Source of the DNA: an uncultured Porphyromonadaceae bacterium
GTDB lineage: Bacteria > Bacteroidota > Bacteroidia > Bacteroidales > Muribaculaceae
Direction of reading: 5' to 3'
Assembly: GCA_946410185.1 (NCBI GenBank)
Contig: CAMJZI010000001.1
Coordinates: 1 to 64,000 of the forward strand
Length of the DNA: 64,000 nt
The translations under genes and the position numbers were made by a program. Below the pieces are notes generated by a model that saw only the letters and a list, made by a program, of their open reading frames with translations, did no database searches and was not told where the DNA came from. This document shows, piece after piece, positions 4,057 to 43,438 of the stretch (the first letter of the stretch is position 1; the number at the start of each line of letters is the position of its first letter).

Positions 4057-5778
4057 TTACCAACCGGGGTTCTGGCCAATCTCGGGATTCAGGTTGATCT
4101 GATCATCGGGAATGGGGAACAGGTTGTACTTGGCATCCCACTTGCGCGGAGCACCGTTGTTCGTGCAGTTGATGTAACCGTCGGCATCGATGGTGACGTC
4201 GCTGATCTTCACGCCCTGGGCGTCATATCCGCCAACGTAGGCACCACGGCTCAGGTTGGGATTGTTGTCGGTGTCAAGCAATGAGAGCTGGTTCCAGCGA
4301 ACCAGTGACCAGTAGCGGTCGTTCATACAGTACATCATCTCGACGCGGCGCTCGCGGCGAACCTCCCAGATGATGTTGCTCACGCCCATGTTATTGGCGG
4401 GATCGGCCTCAACAGCGGTGGTCAGGTGAGGCATGCTCACGCGGTCACGCAGCAGGTTGATGGACTTGTCGAGGTCGTTCTGGGTGATGTTGCCCAGTTC
4501 GGCGCAAGCCTCGGCATAGTTCAGCAGGATCTCGGCATACCAGAAGATGGGAGCGTCGGTCCAGTTACCATAGGTGCTCTGACGGTTGGTGTTGTCAATC
4601 AGGTTGGTATCAAACAGGAATACACCATAACCGGTCGAAGCGGTGGACTGGGCACCGCCAAAGCGAGCGTAACCACAGCCGGGGAATTGCAGGATCTTGT
4701 CAACCTGAGCGCTCAGGCGCGGGTCGCGGGTCGCGAGCACGTTGCTGATGTCGATGTAGTGAGCCTCGCCCAGGCCCGAGTTGTCGTCGAGGACAACCAC
4801 GGTACCGTGGTCGCTGGTGTTCAGGGCGGTGGTAGCCAGGGGCTTACCGTCCTTGAACAGGTAACTGTCGAAAGCATCCTTGGTCATACCGTTGACCTGG
4901 GTTGAACCGCAGGTGTAGTCGATAGTACCATGGGCAAACGTACCCTTGATGTAGTGCTTGTACAGGATCATCTCCTTGTTACCAGCCAGATCAAGCGAGT
5001 TGAAGTTGGCCTGGTAGTTGCTGTTGAGGCTGAAGTTGCCCGAGTTCATGATCTCCTCACAGGCCTTCTTGGCTTCGGTCAGGTAGGCGTTGGCGCGGGT
5101 ATTGTCGTTCTTGACATACTTGCTGTAGTCACCCTCATACAGGCACACCTCGGCCTTCATGGCCAGAGCAACCCACTTGTTGAAAGCGGTGCGCGAATTG
5201 GCATTGTCGGTGATGTTGGCGCAAGCATAGTTCAGATCCTCAAGCACCTTGTCCATGACGATGTTGCGGGGCTGACGGGGACCGTACAGAATATCATTAT
5301 CACTGGGATCGAGCACCTTGTCTACCCAGTAGCAGTCGCCATAGGCACGCACGAGCTTGTAGTGCTGCCATGCGCGGTACAGGCGGCCGATACCCAGCCA
5401 GTTGGCCCTCTTGGCCTCGCTCATCGACTCAATGCTTGGGATAGCGGCAATCATCGTGTTGGCACGGCGAATCTCCACATAGGGCGTGTTCCATGCACCA
5501 GCGCTACCAGGAACGTTCATGTAGGTCCACTTGGTGATACCAGTCGAAGCCTGGTCGTCGTTCAGCGTGTTGAAATAGTAGTCACCGCTGCCGCTGCCAT
5601 AACCCGTAAAGGTGTTATAGAAGGAGTTGGCGAACAGCTGGACGTTGGTCTCACTGGTAAAATAGTTGTCCTTGGTAAACTGATCGTAGGGGTCAGTGTC
5701 GAGAACATCATTGCAAGATGCCAGCGACAACAAGGCAACACCCAGTCCACACAGTATAATTGATTTGAGTGATTTCAT
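4057..5778 (-). CDS. SusD/RagB family nutrient-binding outer membrane lipoprotein
   Basis: Signal MKSLKSIILCGLGVALLSLASC; SusD-type C-terminal region (EVRRERRVEMMYCMNDRYWSLVRW, KYNLFPIP); paired with SusC. Confidence 0.93.
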   Translation of the reverse strand: MKSLKSIILCGLGVALLSLASCNDVLDTDPYDQFTKDNYFTSETNVQLFANSFYNTFTGYGSGSGDYYFNTLNDDQASTGITKWTYMNVPGSAGAWNTPYVEIRRANTMIAAIPSIESMSEAKRANWLGIGRLYRAWQHYKLVRAYGDCYWVDKVLDPSDNDILYGPRQPRNIVMDKVLEDLNYACANITDNANSRTAFNKWVALAMKAEVCLYEGDYSKYVKNDNTRANAYLTEAKKACEEIMNSGNFSLNSNYQANFNSLDLAGNKEMILYKHYIKGTFAHGTIDYTCGSTQVNGMTKDAFDSYLFKDGKPLATTALNTSDHGTVVVLDDNSGLGEAHYIDISNVLATRDPRLSAQVDKILQFPGCGYARFGGAQSTASTGYGVFLFDTNLIDNTNRQSTYGNWTDAPIFWYAEILLNYAEACAELGNITQNDLDKSINLLRDRVSMPHLTTAVEADPANNMGVSNIIWEVRRERRVEMMYCMNDRYWSLVRWNQLSLLDTDNNPNLSRGAYVGGYDAQGVKISDVTIDADGYINCTNNGAPRKWDAKYNLFPIPDDQINLNPEIGQNPGW

Positions 5779-5904: not shown

Positions 5905-8900
5905 TTACTTCACAATGATCTCGCAGATTGAAACACGATTCCAGCTCAACTCATCAAACATCTTGCTGATGCCCTGACCCTGGGCATTGATGCGCTTGGC
6001 ATCAATGCCATACTTGTTCACGAGCATGTCCTTCACGCTGGCGGCACGGCCGTTAGCGAGCTTGATGTTGTTGTCCATCGGACCCTCGGGTGAGGCATAA
6101 CCGTTGATGACGCAGGTTGCCTCGGGGTGGCTCTTCAAGTAAGCGGCAACACGCTCCACGTTAGGACGCTGGTCGGCGCTGACGGCGGTCTTGTTCACGG
6201 GGAAGTGAACGAGCACGTTCATGTACTGCTTGCTGTTGTCTACCACCTTGGGAGCGGAATTCTTGGCAGCATTCAGGTCGTTGCGGCAGTTGGCCAGAGC
6301 GCGGTTGGCGGCATCCAGGTCATTCTGCAACTGGGCCAGACGGCTGTTATAGTTGTTCTCAGCATCGGCGAGCTGAGCGCGCAGGTCATTGATCTGGGCA
6401 TTCAGGGCGCTGTTGTCGGCGGGAGCGGCAACGGCACTGCGGTTGTTGCTGCCGAAGGTCAACTGCACACCCACACTGTAAGTGCGCATGACAGGCTCGG
6501 TACGGCCCCAAACGGCGTTACTTAAGTAACCCACACCGGTGTTGATCTCGGGATCGATGCCAGTGCCGTTGTTGTGGTTGATGATGTCGAACAGGTTGTC
6601 GGTCGAAGCATAGATGCGCAGCTTCTCGATCATGGCCTTGCGGGTCCAGTTCTGAGGCAGCGTGTAACCCACGGTGATGTTCTTCATGCGCAGGTAAGCC
6701 ATGTTCACCAGATACTTGCTCTGGGGATAGAAGTTGAACTTACCCAGGTCAAGGATGTCGCTCGAAGCGTTACCACGGCCGGCACCACCAGCCCACATAC
6801 GCGGGAATTCGGCGCCCTGGTCGATCTTGCCAGCGGCATAGTCGGCCTCGGTGATATAGCTGGTCTGGTTGTCATAGATGGCATCAGCACCACGCATGAA
6901 CGGCATCACGAATGCAGACTGGGTCCACATGTCGCGCTTGCCCACGCCCTGCATGTAGATATCAATATCAATGCCCTTCCAGGCAGCGCCCAGACGCAGT
7001 GAGTACTGGTAGCGCGGGGTGAAGTTACCAATGCGCTTCAGGTCACCGTGATCCTCGGGAGTACCCTTGCCCCAGTCGATAACGCCGTTACCGTCCAGGT
7101 CCTTGAACTTGATGTCACCAGGGCCATAGACGAAGCCGTTGGACTGCAGCTTGGTCTGGTCGGCAACGCCAGCGGCATAGGTGCCGTCGGCATTGAAGTC
7201 CTTGAAGTCGAAGTAGCGGTCGGTCTCAAAGCCCCAGATCTCGCCATACTCCTTGCCAGAGTAATTGTTGTTGATCATGTTGTTGCTGTCCCACTTGATG
7301 ACCTTGGTTTTGTAGTCACTCAAGACTGCGGTTGCATAGAAATCAACATTGCCGATGCGGTTGCGGTAGTCAAGGCTGACTTCCCAACCACGGGTGCGCA
7401 TATCACCAGCGTTCTCCCATGCGGCGTCTGCACCAATAACTGAAGGCAGAGCCTTGCCAGGAGCAAGCATGTCCTTATTTTCACGCTGGAACCAGTCGGC
7501 AATCAAGTTCAGGTGGCCGTTAAAGAAGGCCAAGTCAATACCCACGTTCAGGGTATGGATTTTCTCCCAGGTCAGGGATTCAGAAACCATCTTGGGAGCA
7601 CCAAAGAAGTCCAAGGGCAAATCATTAGAACTTAACCAATTAATGTGTCTGGTATTGCGTTCACCATAATCCTTGTTCTTTTCCAGGGTCTCGATGAACA
7701 TGTAATCACCCACCTCTTGGTTACCGATTACACCATAAGATGCACGGATCTTGGCATTGCTGATGGTGTTCTTGATGGGTGCCCAGAAGGCCTCCTCGCT
7801 GATGCGGTAACCAATCGATGCCGAGGGGAAGAATGCCCACTGATCCTTCTTGGGGAACTTGCTCGAACCGTCATAGCGGCCGTTCAACTCGATCAGGTAG
7901 CGACCCTTGTAGTCATAATTGATGCGGCCAAAGAAGCCCGCCGAGCCCCAGTGGTTGTGGTGATGCTCATAACTATAGTCCTCATTGCTGAGAGCCAACT
8001 CAGGCATGTTAATATCCTGGATGCCATGACGCTCGTAGTAGAGGTACTCATAGTCAGTCTTATCCACGTTGGCACCCACCTTCAGGTTGAAGTTGTGGGC
8101 ATCGTTGATCGACTTGAAAAAGTCGAAGTAACCGTTGGCAACGTGGTTCTCCTTGAAAGCGCGAGAGGTCTCGATGAAGGTCGAGGACGTGATGTCCACA
8201 GGTCCCTGGGGATTCAGACCCCAAGTGTTATAGACAATCGAGGGAAGACCTACGCCTTTGTACCTGTTGGTCCTCTTGATGAAGGTGTAGTCGGCATTGA
8301 AGCTCAGGCCGTAGCCAAAGTCAATCTTGCCAAACACGCCCAAGCTCATGTTGTTCATCTTGTAGTAGCTGTCACCACCGGTGTTGCGACCGCCAATCAT
8401 GGTGCGGGCGTCATACTGCTTGCCATCCTCGGGATTCACAAAGTAGCCGTAGGGGCCAAAGAACGAGCCCCAGCGCCACAGGTACTGGTAGGTACCGGCA
8501 CCGCGCTTATAGGGGGTCTCAAAGGTCCTGTCAACGTAGCTCACACGGGTACCGAGTTCCAACCAATCGGTAGCACGTACCGAAACGTTGGCAGTGGCAT
8601 TGTACTTGCGGAACTTGTCGGGGTTGAAGTTCATCAACGATTGCTTCTGGTTGTAACCAACGCTGGTGTAGAAATTGATGCGACCCGAGTTACCAGTTAC
8701 GCTCAGGTTGTGACTCTGGCTGGGAGCATGGTTGTTGAACATGATGCCAGGCACATCCCAGTTGGCATAGTAACCGTTCTCATCATAGTCGTCACCATAG
8801 ACCATCTCGCGATACTTGTCCTTGATGTCGCCATGCTTCTTGATCCAGTTGTTGATACCATTCTGGAATTCCTCGCTGTCGAGATACATACCGAAGAGTT

Positions 8901-9768
8901 CCGATGCAACGCCCATGCGCTTGTTCACGTCGTTAAGGGCGCTCACCTGGGTGGGCACGTTGGGATAGTCGGGCAGCGTGGTTGCCTGACTCCAAGCGAA
9001 GTTGTTGTTGTAGCTTATCCTGACGTTATCCTTCACGTGAGCGGTCTTGGTAGTGATCAATACAACACCAAAGGCTGCACGAGTACCGTAGATCGAGGTC
9101 GAAGCAGCATCCTTCAAGACACTGATGTTCTCGATATCGGCGGGGTTGAGGTCACCCAGGGTTTCAACGGGGACACCATCAACGATGTACAACGGGGTAG
9201 AAATACCATCATTGGACAGCGTACCGATACCACGGATGACGATTGAGGGATCGGCGCTGATGTCACCGTTAGCGTTCAAAATGGTCAAGCCGGGAACGTT
9301 ACCCTGAAGAGACTTGCGGATGTCGGTCTCGGACTTGGAACCAAGCACTTTGTCCACATCCACGGTGCTCACGGCGCCGGTCAGGTTGGCCTTGCGCTGT
9401 GTACCGTAACCAACGACTACGATCTCATCGAGCTTGGCGTTATCCTCGGCGAGGACAACACGCATGCCGTTGCTGGCACGCAACTCCTGCGTCTTGTAGC
9501 CGATGAATGAAATCTGAAGCTTAGCGTTTGGGCTAGCTTTGAACGAGAAGTTACCGTCCACATCGGTAGATGTGCCACGGGTCGTTCCAACCTCGACAAT
9601 GCTGGCGCCGATGACGGGTTCTCCCTGCTCATCGACAACACGGCCTGTCACAATGCTGGTGGCGGTACTTGCCGTCACCTGGGGCGCGGGTGCTGCCTGG
9701 GCCTGATAACCAGTGCCGCAGAACATCAACAAGGCGCCCAAAAGAGCTAAATGTCCTTTCATAAGCAT
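5905..9768 (-). CDS. SusC/RagA TonB-dependent transporter fused at the C terminus to a coiled coil and an OmpA-like domain
   Basis: CarboxypepD_reg-like domain, plug (VVVGYGTQRKANLTGAV...), barrel ending TYSVGVQLTF, then 182 extra aa including VLVHFPVNKTAVSADQ...VINGYASPEGPMDNNIKLANGRAASVKDML. Confidence 0.93.
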   Translation of the reverse strand: MLMKGHLALLGALLMFCGTGYQAQAAPAPQVTASTATSIVTGRVVDEQGEPVIGASIVEVGTTRGTSTDVDGNFSFKASPNAKLQISFIGYKTQELRASNGMRVVLAEDNAKLDEIVVVGYGTQRKANLTGAVSTVDVDKVLGSKSETDIRKSLQGNVPGLTILNANGDISADPSIVIRGIGTLSNDGISTPLYIVDGVPVETLGDLNPADIENISVLKDAASTSIYGTRAAFGVVLITTKTAHVKDNVRISYNNNFAWSQATTLPDYPNVPTQVSALNDVNKRMGVASELFGMYLDSEEFQNGINNWIKKHGDIKDKYREMVYGDDYDENGYYANWDVPGIMFNNHAPSQSHNLSVTGNSGRINFYTSVGYNQKQSLMNFNPDKFRKYNATANVSVRATDWLELGTRVSYVDRTFETPYKRGAGTYQYLWRWGSFFGPYGYFVNPEDGKQYDARTMIGGRNTGGDSYYKMNNMSLGVFGKIDFGYGLSFNADYTFIKRTNRYKGVGLPSIVYNTWGLNPQGPVDITSSTFIETSRAFKENHVANGYFDFFKSINDAHNFNLKVGANVDKTDYEYLYYERHGIQDINMPELALSNEDYSYEHHHNHWGSAGFFGRINYDYKGRYLIELNGRYDGSSKFPKKDQWAFFPSASIGYRISEEAFWAPIKNTISNAKIRASYGVIGNQEVGDYMFIETLEKNKDYGERNTRHINWLSSNDLPLDFFGAPKMVSESLTWEKIHTLNVGIDLAFFNGHLNLIADWFQRENKDMLAPGKALPSVIGADAAWENAGDMRTRGWEVSLDYRNRIGNVDFYATAVLSDYKTKVIKWDSNNMINNNYSGKEYGEIWGFETDRYFDFKDFNADGTYAAGVADQTKLQSNGFVYGPGDIKFKDLDGNGVIDWGKGTPEDHGDLKRIGNFTPRYQYSLRLGAAWKGIDIDIYMQGVGKRDMWTQSAFVMPFMRGADAIYDNQTSYITEADYAAGKIDQGAEFPRMWAGGAGRGNASSDILDLGKFNFYPQSKYLVNMAYLRMKNITVGYTLPQNWTRKAMIEKLRIYASTDNLFDIINHNNGTGIDPEINTGVGYLSNAVWGRTEPVMRTYSVGVQLTFGSNNRSAVAAPADNSALNAQINDLRAQLADAENNYNSRLAQLQNDLDAANRALANCRNDLNAAKNSAPKVVDNSKQYMNVLVHFPVNKTAVSADQRPNVERVAAYLKSHPEATCVINGYASPEGPMDNNIKLANGRAASVKDMLVNKYGIDAKRINAQGQGISKMFDELSWNRVSICEIIVK

Positions 9769-9844
9769 GTTTTAGTTAGTAATATTAATAAATTATTAAT
9801 TGTTAATTCATAATCAAATGCCGCATAATTGCAACCATTCTCAA

Positions 9845-9870
9845 CAAAATGCGTTTGCTTGCGCATTTTG
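9845..9870. promoter_or_regulatory. Perfect inverted repeat upstream of the susC-ompA fusion gene
   Basis: CAAAATGCG-TTTGCTTG-CGCATTTTG. Confidence 0.5.
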
Positions 9871-10123
9871 CTTTTATAATAATAAAGTGCAAAATTCTAT
9901 AATTTTTTTGAAATGGCAAAAAATTAGGACACTTTTTACAAATACAAACGTTAAAAATGATGAAAAATCGTACCAAATTCAAAAATACAGGGGCTCAAAT
10001 GCCCCTTTTTAGAGTTTTTGATAGCATTCCTTCAACATATTTTAGACTCTCAAATTTAAGTTTGCAAATTCTTGGAGATCGATAGTGGACATGTCATGAG
10101 AAGAGGTCAATCGATGGCAGGGC

Positions 10124-11263
10124 TCATTCGTCGGTCGATGGCACGTCGATGTCGATGACCGGGGCGGCCTCGAGCAGGCGGCGGTACAGGTCGGTCATCT
10201 TGTGATAGAAGGTGGGATAGTCCAGGTTGTCCTGGAAATCCTTCTGGGCCTGCGTTCCCATGCGGGAGCGGCCGGCTGTGTCGTTGATGAGCTGGTTGAT
10301 GGCAGTGAGCAGGGCTTGCTCATCGCCCGGCGGTACGAGCAGACCATTCACGCCGTCGTGCACATACTCGGGCTGTGCGCCGTTGTTGCTGCAGATGTGG
10401 GCCTTGCCTGCCATCATATACTCCAAGTTACTGATACCCAGCGCCTCGGGCTGAATCGACGGCAGCACGCCGAAGTCGGCTTGCCGCAGGTACTCCAGGA
10501 TGTTGTCCCTGAAACCGAGCAGGGTCACGTTATTGACCATGCCGGCAGCAACGATGAATCCCTTGATTTTTGCCTTGTATTTGGGCTGTCCCTCGCCGAT
10601 GATGGCCAGGTGATATTTTGTCTTGTCCACATGGGTCAGGGCACCCAGCAGGGCCTCTATGCCCTTTTCGGGAGTGAGCTTGCCGTGGTACATGATCAGG
10701 GCCTGATGGCTGTCAAGACCCAATTCACGCCTCAGATCGGGCACCGCAGTGCCTAACTGGCTGTCACACACGCTGTCACGAATGACCACCGCACGGTCGG
10801 CATACTGCTTCTTGGCCTTGCCCAGGAAGGCGTCTCGCGCCATCTGGGACGAGAAAACAAAACCGTCAATCGACTTGTATAACTTATTGTACATGTAGTT
10901 GTTCTTGGGCTTGTAAACACCGTGAACGCTCACTATCACGCGCGTATCGCGGTTCTCACTGATGCGACGGGCCATCACGGCCATGAAGGCATCCTTGAAA
11001 CTGTGCACATGGATGATATTTTTACCCTTGCGCAACAAGCGTGCAAACCTCACGGGCGAATCGATGTCGGTCACGCCCTTAAGCGGCAGGATGGAAATGG
11101 GAATTTCCAGGCGACGGTACTGCTTGAGCACGTTTGGATGCTTGCGGCATACCACCTCGGCATAGAAATCGGGGTCGTTGCGTAACCGCTCGACCAAGTC
11201 ATAAGTATATTGCTCGGCACCTGTCCAGTGCTTGTTAGAAACAATATGAAAAACGTTAATCAT
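10124..11263 (-). CDS. Glycosyltransferase family 4 (GT-B fold)
   Basis: MYHGKLTPEKGIEALL and GVLPSIQPEALGISNLEYMMAGK donor-binding motif. Confidence 0.88.
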   Translation of the reverse strand: MINVFHIVSNKHWTGAEQYTYDLVERLRNDPDFYAEVVCRKHPNVLKQYRRLEIPISILPLKGVTDIDSPVRFARLLRKGKNIIHVHSFKDAFMAVMARRISENRDTRVIVSVHGVYKPKNNYMYNKLYKSIDGFVFSSQMARDAFLGKAKKQYADRAVVIRDSVCDSQLGTAVPDLRRELGLDSHQALIMYHGKLTPEKGIEALLGALTHVDKTKYHLAIIGEGQPKYKAKIKGFIVAAGMVNNVTLLGFRDNILEYLRQADFGVLPSIQPEALGISNLEYMMAGKAHICSNNGAQPEYVHDGVNGLLVPPGDEQALLTAINQLINDTAGRSRMGTQAQKDFQDNLDYPTFYHKMTDLYRRLLEAAPVIDIDVPSTDE

Positions 11264-40255: not shown

Positions 40256-43200
40256 ATGAAGAAAATTGTTCTGTTGCTGATTGCTACATGTATGGTGGCA
40301 CTCTCGGCTTATGCCGACCGCACCATTCATGGGCAAGTGTTAGATGAAGCCAATGGTGAGCCACTCATTGGCGCCACTGTACAGGGTGTCGGCGTGAATC
40401 AAGGCACCGCTACCGATATTGATGGTCATTTCACGCTTAACTTGCCTGATCATGTAAAGTATGTCAACGTTTCCTATGTTGGCTATGCAACTCGTCAGGT
40501 AGAGGTTGCTAACGAAATGATAATCAAGTTGTCAGACTCTGGCCAGAGTCTTGATGAGGTAGTTGTTGTGGCTTACGGTAGCGCTAAGCGTCAGTCAATT
40601 ACCGGTTCTATCTCGGTTGTGGATGAGAAGAAAATCAAGGACCGCATCGGTTCATCGGTAACTGCCGCTCTCGAGGGTAGCACCCCTGGTATCCAGGTGA
40701 ACAATACCTACGGTGAGCCTGGTGCAGCCCCCAACATCCGCATCCGCGGTATCGGTAGCATCACCGGTTCGAGCGCTCCTCTCTATGTTGTTGATGGTGT
40801 GGCATTTGATGGCAACATCGCCGAGATCAACCCCGTGGACATCGAGAGCATGAGTGTCCTCAAGGATGCCGCTTCGGCAGCCCTGTATGGTAACCGTGCA
40901 GCCAACGGTGTTGTGCTGATTACCACCAAGAAGGGTAGCTACTCCAACAAGCCCACCGTGACTGTCCGCATCAACCAGGGTATGTACAAGCGTGGTATCG
41001 CCGAGTATGACCGCATGAATGCCGACCAGTGGATGGAGGCTTCGTGGATAGCTATGAGGAACTTTGCCATGAACGGTAGCTTGGGTCTTGATGCCGATGC
41101 TGCTGCCCAATATGCTTCCCAACGCCTTATTAGTGACTATGTAAAGCGCAATATCTATGATGTAGCTGCTACCAGTTTGTTTGATGCTAATGGTAAGCTG
41201 ACTGGACATGTTCTCCCCGGTTATGATGACCTGGATTGGGAGAAGGAAGTTGAACGCACGGGTTATCGTCAGGATTACAGCCTCTCGGGCACCGCTGGTG
41301 GCGAGAAGTACAACGTATATGCTTCGGCTGGTTACACCAATGAGAAGGGCTATGTTCAGGCCAGTGCCTATGAGCGTTTCACTGGACGTCTGAACTCCAA
41401 CTTCACCCCTAACAACTGGTTCAAGACTGGTGTGAACTTGAGTGCTACTTATGCTACCCGCAACTTCAATAGCAATGCAACTGGTAATTACTATGCCAAC
41501 CCCTTCTATGTAGCCCGCTACATGGCTCCTGTTTATCCCCTGTTCCTCCACAACGAGGATGGCTCCTACCTGCTTGACAAGAATGGTGAGCGTCAGTATG
41601 ATACCAAGTCTTCTTATCTGACCAACCGCAACATCGCCTTTGAGCTACGCAACGACTTTGACCGTAACCGTCGTGCCGTGATCGATGGCCAGATCTATGG
41701 TACATTCACCCTGCCTTTCGGCTTATCGCTGACGTTGAAGGCTGACTTCAACCACTCCAATTCCAATCGTCGTCATTACAACAACCCGTTCATTGGTGAC
41801 GGTGCTACCAATGGTGGCCGCTTGACCAGTTATGCCTATGAATATAACACCCGCACCGCTCAGGAAATCCTGAACTGGTACCGTGACTTTGACCGTCATC
41901 ACATTGAAATCATGCTGGCTCATGAGAACTATGAGAGCAACAGCCGTAGCGCCTATGGCATGAACACTGGTTCGGCAGCCGATGGTATATATGTTCCGGG
42001 TAATTTCCAGACCAACTCCTACTTCAAAGGTTTGGACGATGTAGACAGGACTGAGTCCTACCTGGGTCGTGCCCGTTACAGCTACTTTGAGAAATACTTC
42101 GTTGACTTCTCGTTCCGCCGTGATGGTTCTTCACGTTTTGCCAAGGATAACCGCTGGGGTAACTTCTACTCCTTCGGTGTGAACTGGAACATCAAAAAGG
42201 AGAACTTTCTCCAGAATGTAGACTGGCTTGACCAGCTGCGTATCCGCGCTTCTTATGGTGAGACTGGTAACAACTCTGGTGTCAGCTTGTATGCTTACCA
42301 GCCTCTGTATTATATCGAGAAGAATGCTGGTACTGCCGCTTTCATGAAGCAGAGCCTTGCTGCCGAGGACATCAAGTGGGAGACCTGCCAGAATATCGAC
42401 TTGGGTATCGAGGGTCGCGTGTTTGACCGCTTGAACTTCAACTTTGTGCTGTTCGACAAACGTAACAAGGACCTCTTGTTTGCAGTACCTCTGCCCCTGT
42501 CTGCTGGTTCTTGGAACTGGGATGATAACTACAACATGAGCATCTACAAGAACATCGGTACCATCACCAACCGTGGTATTGAGGTTTCGCTGAGCTATGA
42601 TGCAATCCGCAACAGAGATCTTAACTGGACCCTGAGCACCGAGGGCACTTTCATGAAGAGCAAGATTAAGAAGCTGCCTAACGGCAGGGACATTATTCAT
42701 GGTCAGCAGAACTACAGCGAGGGCCATGATCCCTACGAATTCTACACCTATCACTTTGTGGGCGTTGACCAGATGACAGGTCGTTCGCTCTACACCATCG
42801 ATCCCGACCTTCAGGCAAGGGCCATTGCCTATGGTGAGGCAGTAGAAATCAATGGCGTGACCTATACCACCCTGCCAGGCTCCTTTGGTAAGCGTGACTG
42901 GGCCGGCAGTGCACATCCTTGGTTCTATGGTTCGTTCAACTCAGTGCTGCAGTACAAGGGCTTCTCATTCAACGCCCTGTTTACCTATAGTCTGGGTGGC
43001 AAGGTTTATGACAGTGCTTATCAGTCACTGATGTCCACCAACTCGGCATCGTCGGCCAGCGCTAACCATTGCGACTTGATAAATTCCTGGAGCGGTGTTC
43101 CCGCAGGCATGACCGAGGATTCTCCCAACCGCATTGATCCCGATGGTCTTCCCCAGCTCGACTTTGAGAACAGCTCCTACAACAATGCTACCAGTGACCG

Positions 43201-43438
43201 CTGGTTGACCAGCGCTTCCTACTTTGTAGTGAAAAACCTCAGCCTGAGCTATTCCCTGCCCAAGCTGCTTATCAACAAGGCTGGTCTGCAGGCCCTCACC
43301 CTTACCGCAGGTGTTGAGAACCTGGCCACCTTCACTGCCCGCAAGGGTCTGAATCCCCAGTTCAACTTCAGCGGTGGTTCTGATGATACCTATGTTACCG
43401 CACGAGTGTTCAACTTCGGCCTTCAGCTTCAGTTCTGA
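40256..43438 (+). CDS. SusC/RagA TonB-dependent outer membrane transporter
   Basis: HGQVLDEANGEPLIGATVQG, VVVAYGSAKRQSITGSISVV, barrel ending VFNFGLQLQF. Confidence 0.96.
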   Translation: MKKIVLLLIATCMVALSAYADRTIHGQVLDEANGEPLIGATVQGVGVNQGTATDIDGHFTLNLPDHVKYVNVSYVGYATRQVEVANEMIIKLSDSGQSLDEVVVVAYGSAKRQSITGSISVVDEKKIKDRIGSSVTAALEGSTPGIQVNNTYGEPGAAPNIRIRGIGSITGSSAPLYVVDGVAFDGNIAEINPVDIESMSVLKDAASAALYGNRAANGVVLITTKKGSYSNKPTVTVRINQGMYKRGIAEYDRMNADQWMEASWIAMRNFAMNGSLGLDADAAAQYASQRLISDYVKRNIYDVAATSLFDANGKLTGHVLPGYDDLDWEKEVERTGYRQDYSLSGTAGGEKYNVYASAGYTNEKGYVQASAYERFTGRLNSNFTPNNWFKTGVNLSATYATRNFNSNATGNYYANPFYVARYMAPVYPLFLHNEDGSYLLDKNGERQYDTKSSYLTNRNIAFELRNDFDRNRRAVIDGQIYGTFTLPFGLSLTLKADFNHSNSNRRHYNNPFIGDGATNGGRLTSYAYEYNTRTAQEILNWYRDFDRHHIEIMLAHENYESNSRSAYGMNTGSAADGIYVPGNFQTNSYFKGLDDVDRTESYLGRARYSYFEKYFVDFSFRRDGSSRFAKDNRWGNFYSFGVNWNIKKENFLQNVDWLDQLRIRASYGETGNNSGVSLYAYQPLYYIEKNAGTAAFMKQSLAAEDIKWETCQNIDLGIEGRVFDRLNFNFVLFDKRNKDLLFAVPLPLSAGSWNWDDNYNMSIYKNIGTITNRGIEVSLSYDAIRNRDLNWTLSTEGTFMKSKIKKLPNGRDIIHGQQNYSEGHDPYEFYTYHFVGVDQMTGRSLYTIDPDLQARAIAYGEAVEINGVTYTTLPGSFGKRDWAGSAHPWFYGSFNSVLQYKGFSFNALFTYSLGGKVYDSAYQSLMSTNSASSASANHCDLINSWSGVPAGMTEDSPNRIDPDGLPQLDFENSSYNNATSDRWLTSASYFVVKNLSLSYSLPKLLINKAGLQALTLTAGVENLATFTARKGLNPQFNFSGGSDDTYVTARVFNFGLQLQF

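Follow-up and report, generated by a model that had tools for sequence, protein, structure and literature searches.

SusC transporters with an OmpA-like C-terminal tail in one clade of uncultured Bacteroidales, and the putative role of the tail as a peptidoglycan tether

The window, a stretch of 64,000 nucleotides from a MAG that is 62% complete, carries on its minus strand a gene (5905-9768, 1287 aa) that joins a SusC transporter and an OmpA-like domain in a single frame. Based on the ORF reading of the window, this frame starts with ATG and has no internal stop. It begins with a putative signal peptide at approximately residues 1-25 (9694-9768; all features of this gene are on the minus strand), read from the sequence MLMKGHLALLGALLMFCGTGYQAQA alone. 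This is followed by a CarbopepD_reg_2 N-terminal extension (residues 40-118, 9415-9651, Pfam 1.1e-17), a TonB-dependent plug (residues 126-235, 9064-9393, Pfam 1.3e-14), and a β-barrel of SusC group A (6454-9063, Pfam 3.2e-14). The final barrel strand, EPVMRTYSVGVQLTF, extends to residue 1105; it corresponds to strand E977-988 in the model of an 1170-aa fragment. The protein usually ends at this strand in SusC, a custom rather than a requirement of the domain family. Here, the translation agrees with the preliminary description that the frame runs on for another 182 aa, forming a tail with a long helix (6259-6417) and an OmpA_C-like domain (residues 1189-1287, 5908-6204). The CarbopepD_reg_2, plug, TonB barrel, and OmpA domains each score above the curated Pfam cut-off. 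Additionally, a gene for a SusD-family partner lipoprotein (4057-5778, minus strand, 573 aa, SusD_RagB 4e-32) lies directly downstream, and the same neighbor stands beside other group A genes. A block at 9880-9987, with no strand assigned, is 73-86% conserved among group A and A' genes by blastn and is a putative promoter region. Judged from its sequence, the gene encodes an intact SusC transporter with predicted TonB-driven import. A second SusC in the window (40256-43438) lacks the extension, as had been noted earlier, and Pfam finds no OmpA domain there.

To describe the tail structurally, we used an AlphaFold2 model built from 31 homologs (mean pLDDT 87.8). In this model, tail residues 14-66 form a single coiled-coil-like helix of 53 residues (pLDDT of this block mostly 92-94), about 80 Å long if straight, followed by an alpha/beta domain. 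Both the prediction and the conservation bear out the heptad-like stretch of the preliminary description. The OmpA_C-like module recognized there is likewise supported by Pfam (OmpA 6e-12 at residues 1189-1270; PF00691 at 46.2 bits against a gathering score of 27.2), by the fold search, and by conservation. In the Foldseek search of the PDB, the first match of the tail is the OmpA domain of A. baumannii (3td3, E 1.1e-13, rmsd 1.5 Å), with OprF next and 9uu2 reaching a TM score of 0.91 over the target. The model of the 1170-aa fragment, from which the N-terminal extension was removed, is weaker (mean pLDDT 63.6); in it, the last strand leads through a linker of about 14 residues into the helix, and its top matches (8aa4, 6sln, and 8a9y) are SusC/RagA structures.

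Similar to RagA (6sln) and the dextran and levan SusC proteins (8aa4, 8a9y), the window protein has the CarbopepD extension, plug, barrel, and adjacent SusD; in contrast, the SusC proteins of sister species stop at the last strand, whereas it continues for 182 aa. The C-terminal domain of OmpA/OprF (3td3, 5u1h, 9uu2) has the same fold, the same Arg286 and Asn279 positions, and a helical linker after the barrel. However, that barrel is small and porin-like, whereas the window domain sits on a TonB-dependent barrel of SusC size. A further comparison is the free OmpA of the same genus (414-424 aa, e.g., L069:6111-7355), of which the window genome also encodes a 414-aa copy. Its linker is homologous to the helix of the tail, and linker and OmpA_C domain together are about 63% identical, but its N-terminal barrel is smaller and its tails form a separate clade. 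Finally, among the fold matches, PorE of the T9SS (6top), TagL of the T6SS (5m38), and Dot/Icm likewise use OmpA_C as a modular anchor of a larger machine. None of these is a nutrient transporter, whereas in the SusC case one tail is found on several paralogs in one lineage.

As reported, Asp271 and Arg286 of A. baumannii OmpA bind DAP (PMC5974059). The ungapped alignment to 3td3 places Ser1226 (codon 6091-6093, minus strand) at the position of Asp271 and Arg1241 (codon 6046-6048, minus strand; invariant column R137 in alignment A2) at the position of Arg286. This agrees with the earlier reading of GYAS in place of the canonical aspartate with the arginine kept. The Arg286 and Asn279 positions of the DAP site are kept in the SusC tails, whereas the DAP-binding Asp271 is not. 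All 90 SusC tails and all 23 free OmpAs of the genus that were scanned have Ser at this position, and all of them have an acidic residue two positions further on (S-x-[E/D]-G). The combination of Ser and acid recurs in free OmpAs from other Bacteroidales families. Decay of the peptidoglycan site within the fusion is thus ruled out; because the free OmpAs carry the same S-x-[E/D]-G motif, the change from Asp to Ser is inherited from the donor subfamily. We infer that the acid at +2 may take over the role of Asp271.

The preliminary description saw one fusion, but the fusion is present in several related genomes. In the window genome itself, a second SusC-OmpA fusion has a tail 75% identical to the window tail. 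Among the matches listed, fusions occur in 38 of 101 genomes of the genus, all in one deep clade; a genome was counted when its best tail match lay far above the range of free OmpA. All sequences compared are MAGs of uncultured bacteria. The 38 genomes come from several independent projects, and where a record has a name, it is a MAG from the rumen or ruminant gut under the title Muribaculaceae, Prevotellaceae, Porphyromonadaceae, or Bacteroidales. The clade is also delimited by MnmG, whose identity to the window protein is 85-91% in fusion species and at most 76% in others, apart from short partial matches at 77-78%. Essentially every species of the fusion clade has retained the tail; one incomplete MAG (G351, 57%) falls on the fusion side of the MnmG split with no fusion seen. 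The sister species, nearly all on the MnmG side of at most 76%, have no fusion. Similarly, no fusion was found outside the clade in 294 genomes of the order, among the matches listed, or in 396 genomes of the phylum, where scoring covered the best five candidates of each genome. Four other long OmpA ORFs of the order (G210, G262, G163, and G203) were read and are not SusC. The order and phylum samples thus speak against SusC-OmpA as a widespread Bacteroidota architecture. Absence outside the clade is well supported, if not complete, given the order matches listed and five scored candidates per genome in the phylum. No published report of a SusC and OmpA fusion was found in the open-licence literature.

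A misassembly or indel near 6450, which the preliminary description had named as a possible source of the long frame, is rejected as the origin of the fusion, as is a frameshift, by the second copy in the same genome and by the fusions in 37 other genomes. An assembly artefact in one MAG is refuted for the architecture, which recurs in all 38 genomes from independent projects.

To trace the history of the fusion, we compared the trees of barrels and tails. Five SusC groups (A, A', B, C, and D) account for the fused barrels. The first four lie within one SusC cluster, and group D is located apart from it, in an operon that also contains SusD and an MscS-like gene. Barrel identity between groups averages 25-28% (about 51% for A and A'), and tail identity across SusC groups is about 68-87%. 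By parsimony, the fused state takes at least six changes on the barrel tree, a count that by itself gives no direction of change, and a single clade of fused barrels is rejected (p-AU 3e-91). The tail tree separates the SusC tails, as a single clade, from every free OmpA (support 99/95), which rejects several independent captures from free OmpA. Tail gains, rather than losses, are favored as the explanation of the fused state, because the tail is limited to one species clade and is too similar among such old barrels to be ancestral. Because there is a single tail clade, the simplest history is one capture from an OmpA-like donor, related to the free OmpA of the genus, behind the last barrel strand of one SusC, followed by copying through recombination from SusC to SusC until at least five genes had the tail. 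Among the group B barrels, two without a tail (L159 and L160, from G352 and G015) are nested beside a fused barrel and may reflect loss of the tail or transfer of a barrel between clades without it.

All five groups have tail-less orthologs in the fusion-free sister species, 49-79% identical at best. These orthologs have their stop codon at the last strand, and their final residue is aromatic or aliphatic as usual, whereas the fused proteins run on past it. In the fused proteins, the C-terminal beta-signal would be internal, as in OmpA, and the tail might be an aid to assembly or stability, and not an anchor, that helps handling by a chaperone or BAM. However, nothing in the data points there, and tail-less versions of the same barrels are made by the sister species, so we rate this explanation as very improbable.

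Several observations concern the arrangement of these genes. Groups A and A' apparently replace one another at a single locus next to a metallo-beta-lactamase-fold gene; the window genome has both, A at 5905-9768 and A' on a short separate contig (L068:2144-5965). In relatives, groups B and C stand between the group A SusC and a glycosyltransferase gene. Both are missing from the window (9769-11263), where the glycosyltransferase gene comes directly after the group A SusC. In many species, transcription of A (or A') and of B diverges from one short region that the two share (L066:7743-8259, L057:6631-6992, L048:8566-8981). A phase-variable shared promoter was considered for these pairs and rejected, as the shared regions contain no consistent inverted repeats. 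In addition, the group D locus (L034:2329-11033 and orthologous loci) runs from SusC through SusD and a 270-aa gene without a Pfam match to a gene for an MscS-type mechanosensitive channel, an odd neighbor for a transporter operon.

The window gene itself carries a mosaic tail. From 6333 to 6088 (minus strand; outer bounds 6082-6364), the 25 strict informative sites are all of B/C/D type; from 6082 onward, 8 of 8 are of A type, as are the sites upstream of 6364. Looser thresholds leave a few mixed sites near the right edge of the tract. This patch of about 250-280 nt is read as gene conversion because A-type sequence flanks it on both sides. The paralogous tails are 73-85% identical in DNA, which makes chimeric contigs conceivable, but a chimera would take two joins here. 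For the fusion itself, the likelihood of an assembly artefact in one MAG is negligible. The tail tree places further tails with the wrong group: B of G393 with A', C of G393 and G340 with D, and A of the window with B/C/D. A topology that unites all A and A' tails is rejected with moderate strength (p-AU 0.02) in a test made after the tree was seen. Based on these sites and trees, the tails are still exchanged among SusC paralogs by gene conversion. Taken together, the architecture and evolutionary history of the SusC-OmpA fusion are, in our judgment, close to certain.

The median pairwise dN/dS is 0.13-0.18 within tail groups and 0.21 for free OmpA, and by this measure the tails are under purifying selection. 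This bears on whether the tail is a neutral passenger, spread and homogenized by recombination without an important role. Its spread and exchange by recombination are clear, and the tail-less group B genes beside a fused one would fit. However, the dN/dS is as low as that of free OmpA, and the tail is retained in essentially all species of the clade. Moreover, in four near-complete fusion genomes, fusion-length frames are found in 2-4 of 19-27 plug-domain proteins, and the tailed TonB-dependent receptors, 2-4 of about 20, always belong to the same core groups. A passenger is therefore improbable.

We consider the tail to be probably a peptidoglycan tether of the core SusCD transporters, in line with the anchoring suggested in the preliminary description. 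The barrel would be embedded in the outer membrane, with SusD on its outer side; the helix of about 80 Å would extend over some of the periplasmic width, and the peptidoglycan stem peptide would be bound by the OmpA_C domain. Control of TonB contact or of clustering, also raised in the preliminary description, is possible, with the evidence pointing neither way. The transporter would become a load-bearing and/or position-fixed outer membrane protein, and three to four anchor species would be added beside the retained OmpA-type proteins. The number of OmpA domains is 8-9 in fusion genomes and 4-6 in tail-less relatives. Because fusion genomes retain free OmpA and further OmpA-domain proteins as well, the tails add anchors, and replacement of lost tethers is not supported. 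In Flavobacterium, OmpA that anchors the outer membrane to the wall and a SusCDE complex rank highest in abundance among the outer membrane components (PMC12611786). Against a tether, the canonical Asp271 is Ser in this S-x-[E/D]-G subfamily, for which peptidoglycan binding is a prediction. As a side observation, another OmpA-domain protein differs in length across the genus, with 669-686 aa in genomes with fusions and 790-831 aa in those without.

The helix could also point to a different main function, in which the tail is an oligomerization device. Its helices would form coiled coils between SusC proteins, or between SusC and the resident OmpA, and give mixed outer membrane clusters, with peptidoglycan binding secondary. 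The 53-residue helix is well predicted, aliphatic residues are enriched at one a/d register, and its sequence is common to the SusC tail and free OmpA. Moreover, OmpA-like proteins of P. gingivalis form trimers (PMC6112661), and SusCD complexes are dimeric (PMC7618045). However, linker indels of 3-4 residues between barrel groups would break a common heptad register, and the OmpA_C domain, with its invariant C-terminal block, is the most conserved part of the tail. We regard oligomerization as the main function as unlikely. Slightly less doubtful, and offered tentatively, is a combination in which the core SusCD set is made both wall-anchored and mutually compatible: tails matched by conversion would pair through their helices with each other and with OmpA, and uptake sites would be gathered in wall-bound islands.

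Both modules are well known, but no report of a SusC with a putative wall-anchor tail was found in the open-licence literature. The history of the tail is unusual in that at least five long-diverged transporters of one lineage have received the same domain, and the tail-less orthologs of sister species are natural controls. The sharing of the tail suggests a benefit of holding nutrient transporters to the wall. It bears on whether free diffusion or wall fixation of a TonB-dependent transporter matters, and on why selection would favor fixing several core transporters together.

Elsewhere in the window, two neighboring kinase-like genes (112-1152 and 1259-2956) have similar P-loop segments (GPSCSGKTT and GPSSSGKTT) and are possibly duplicated.
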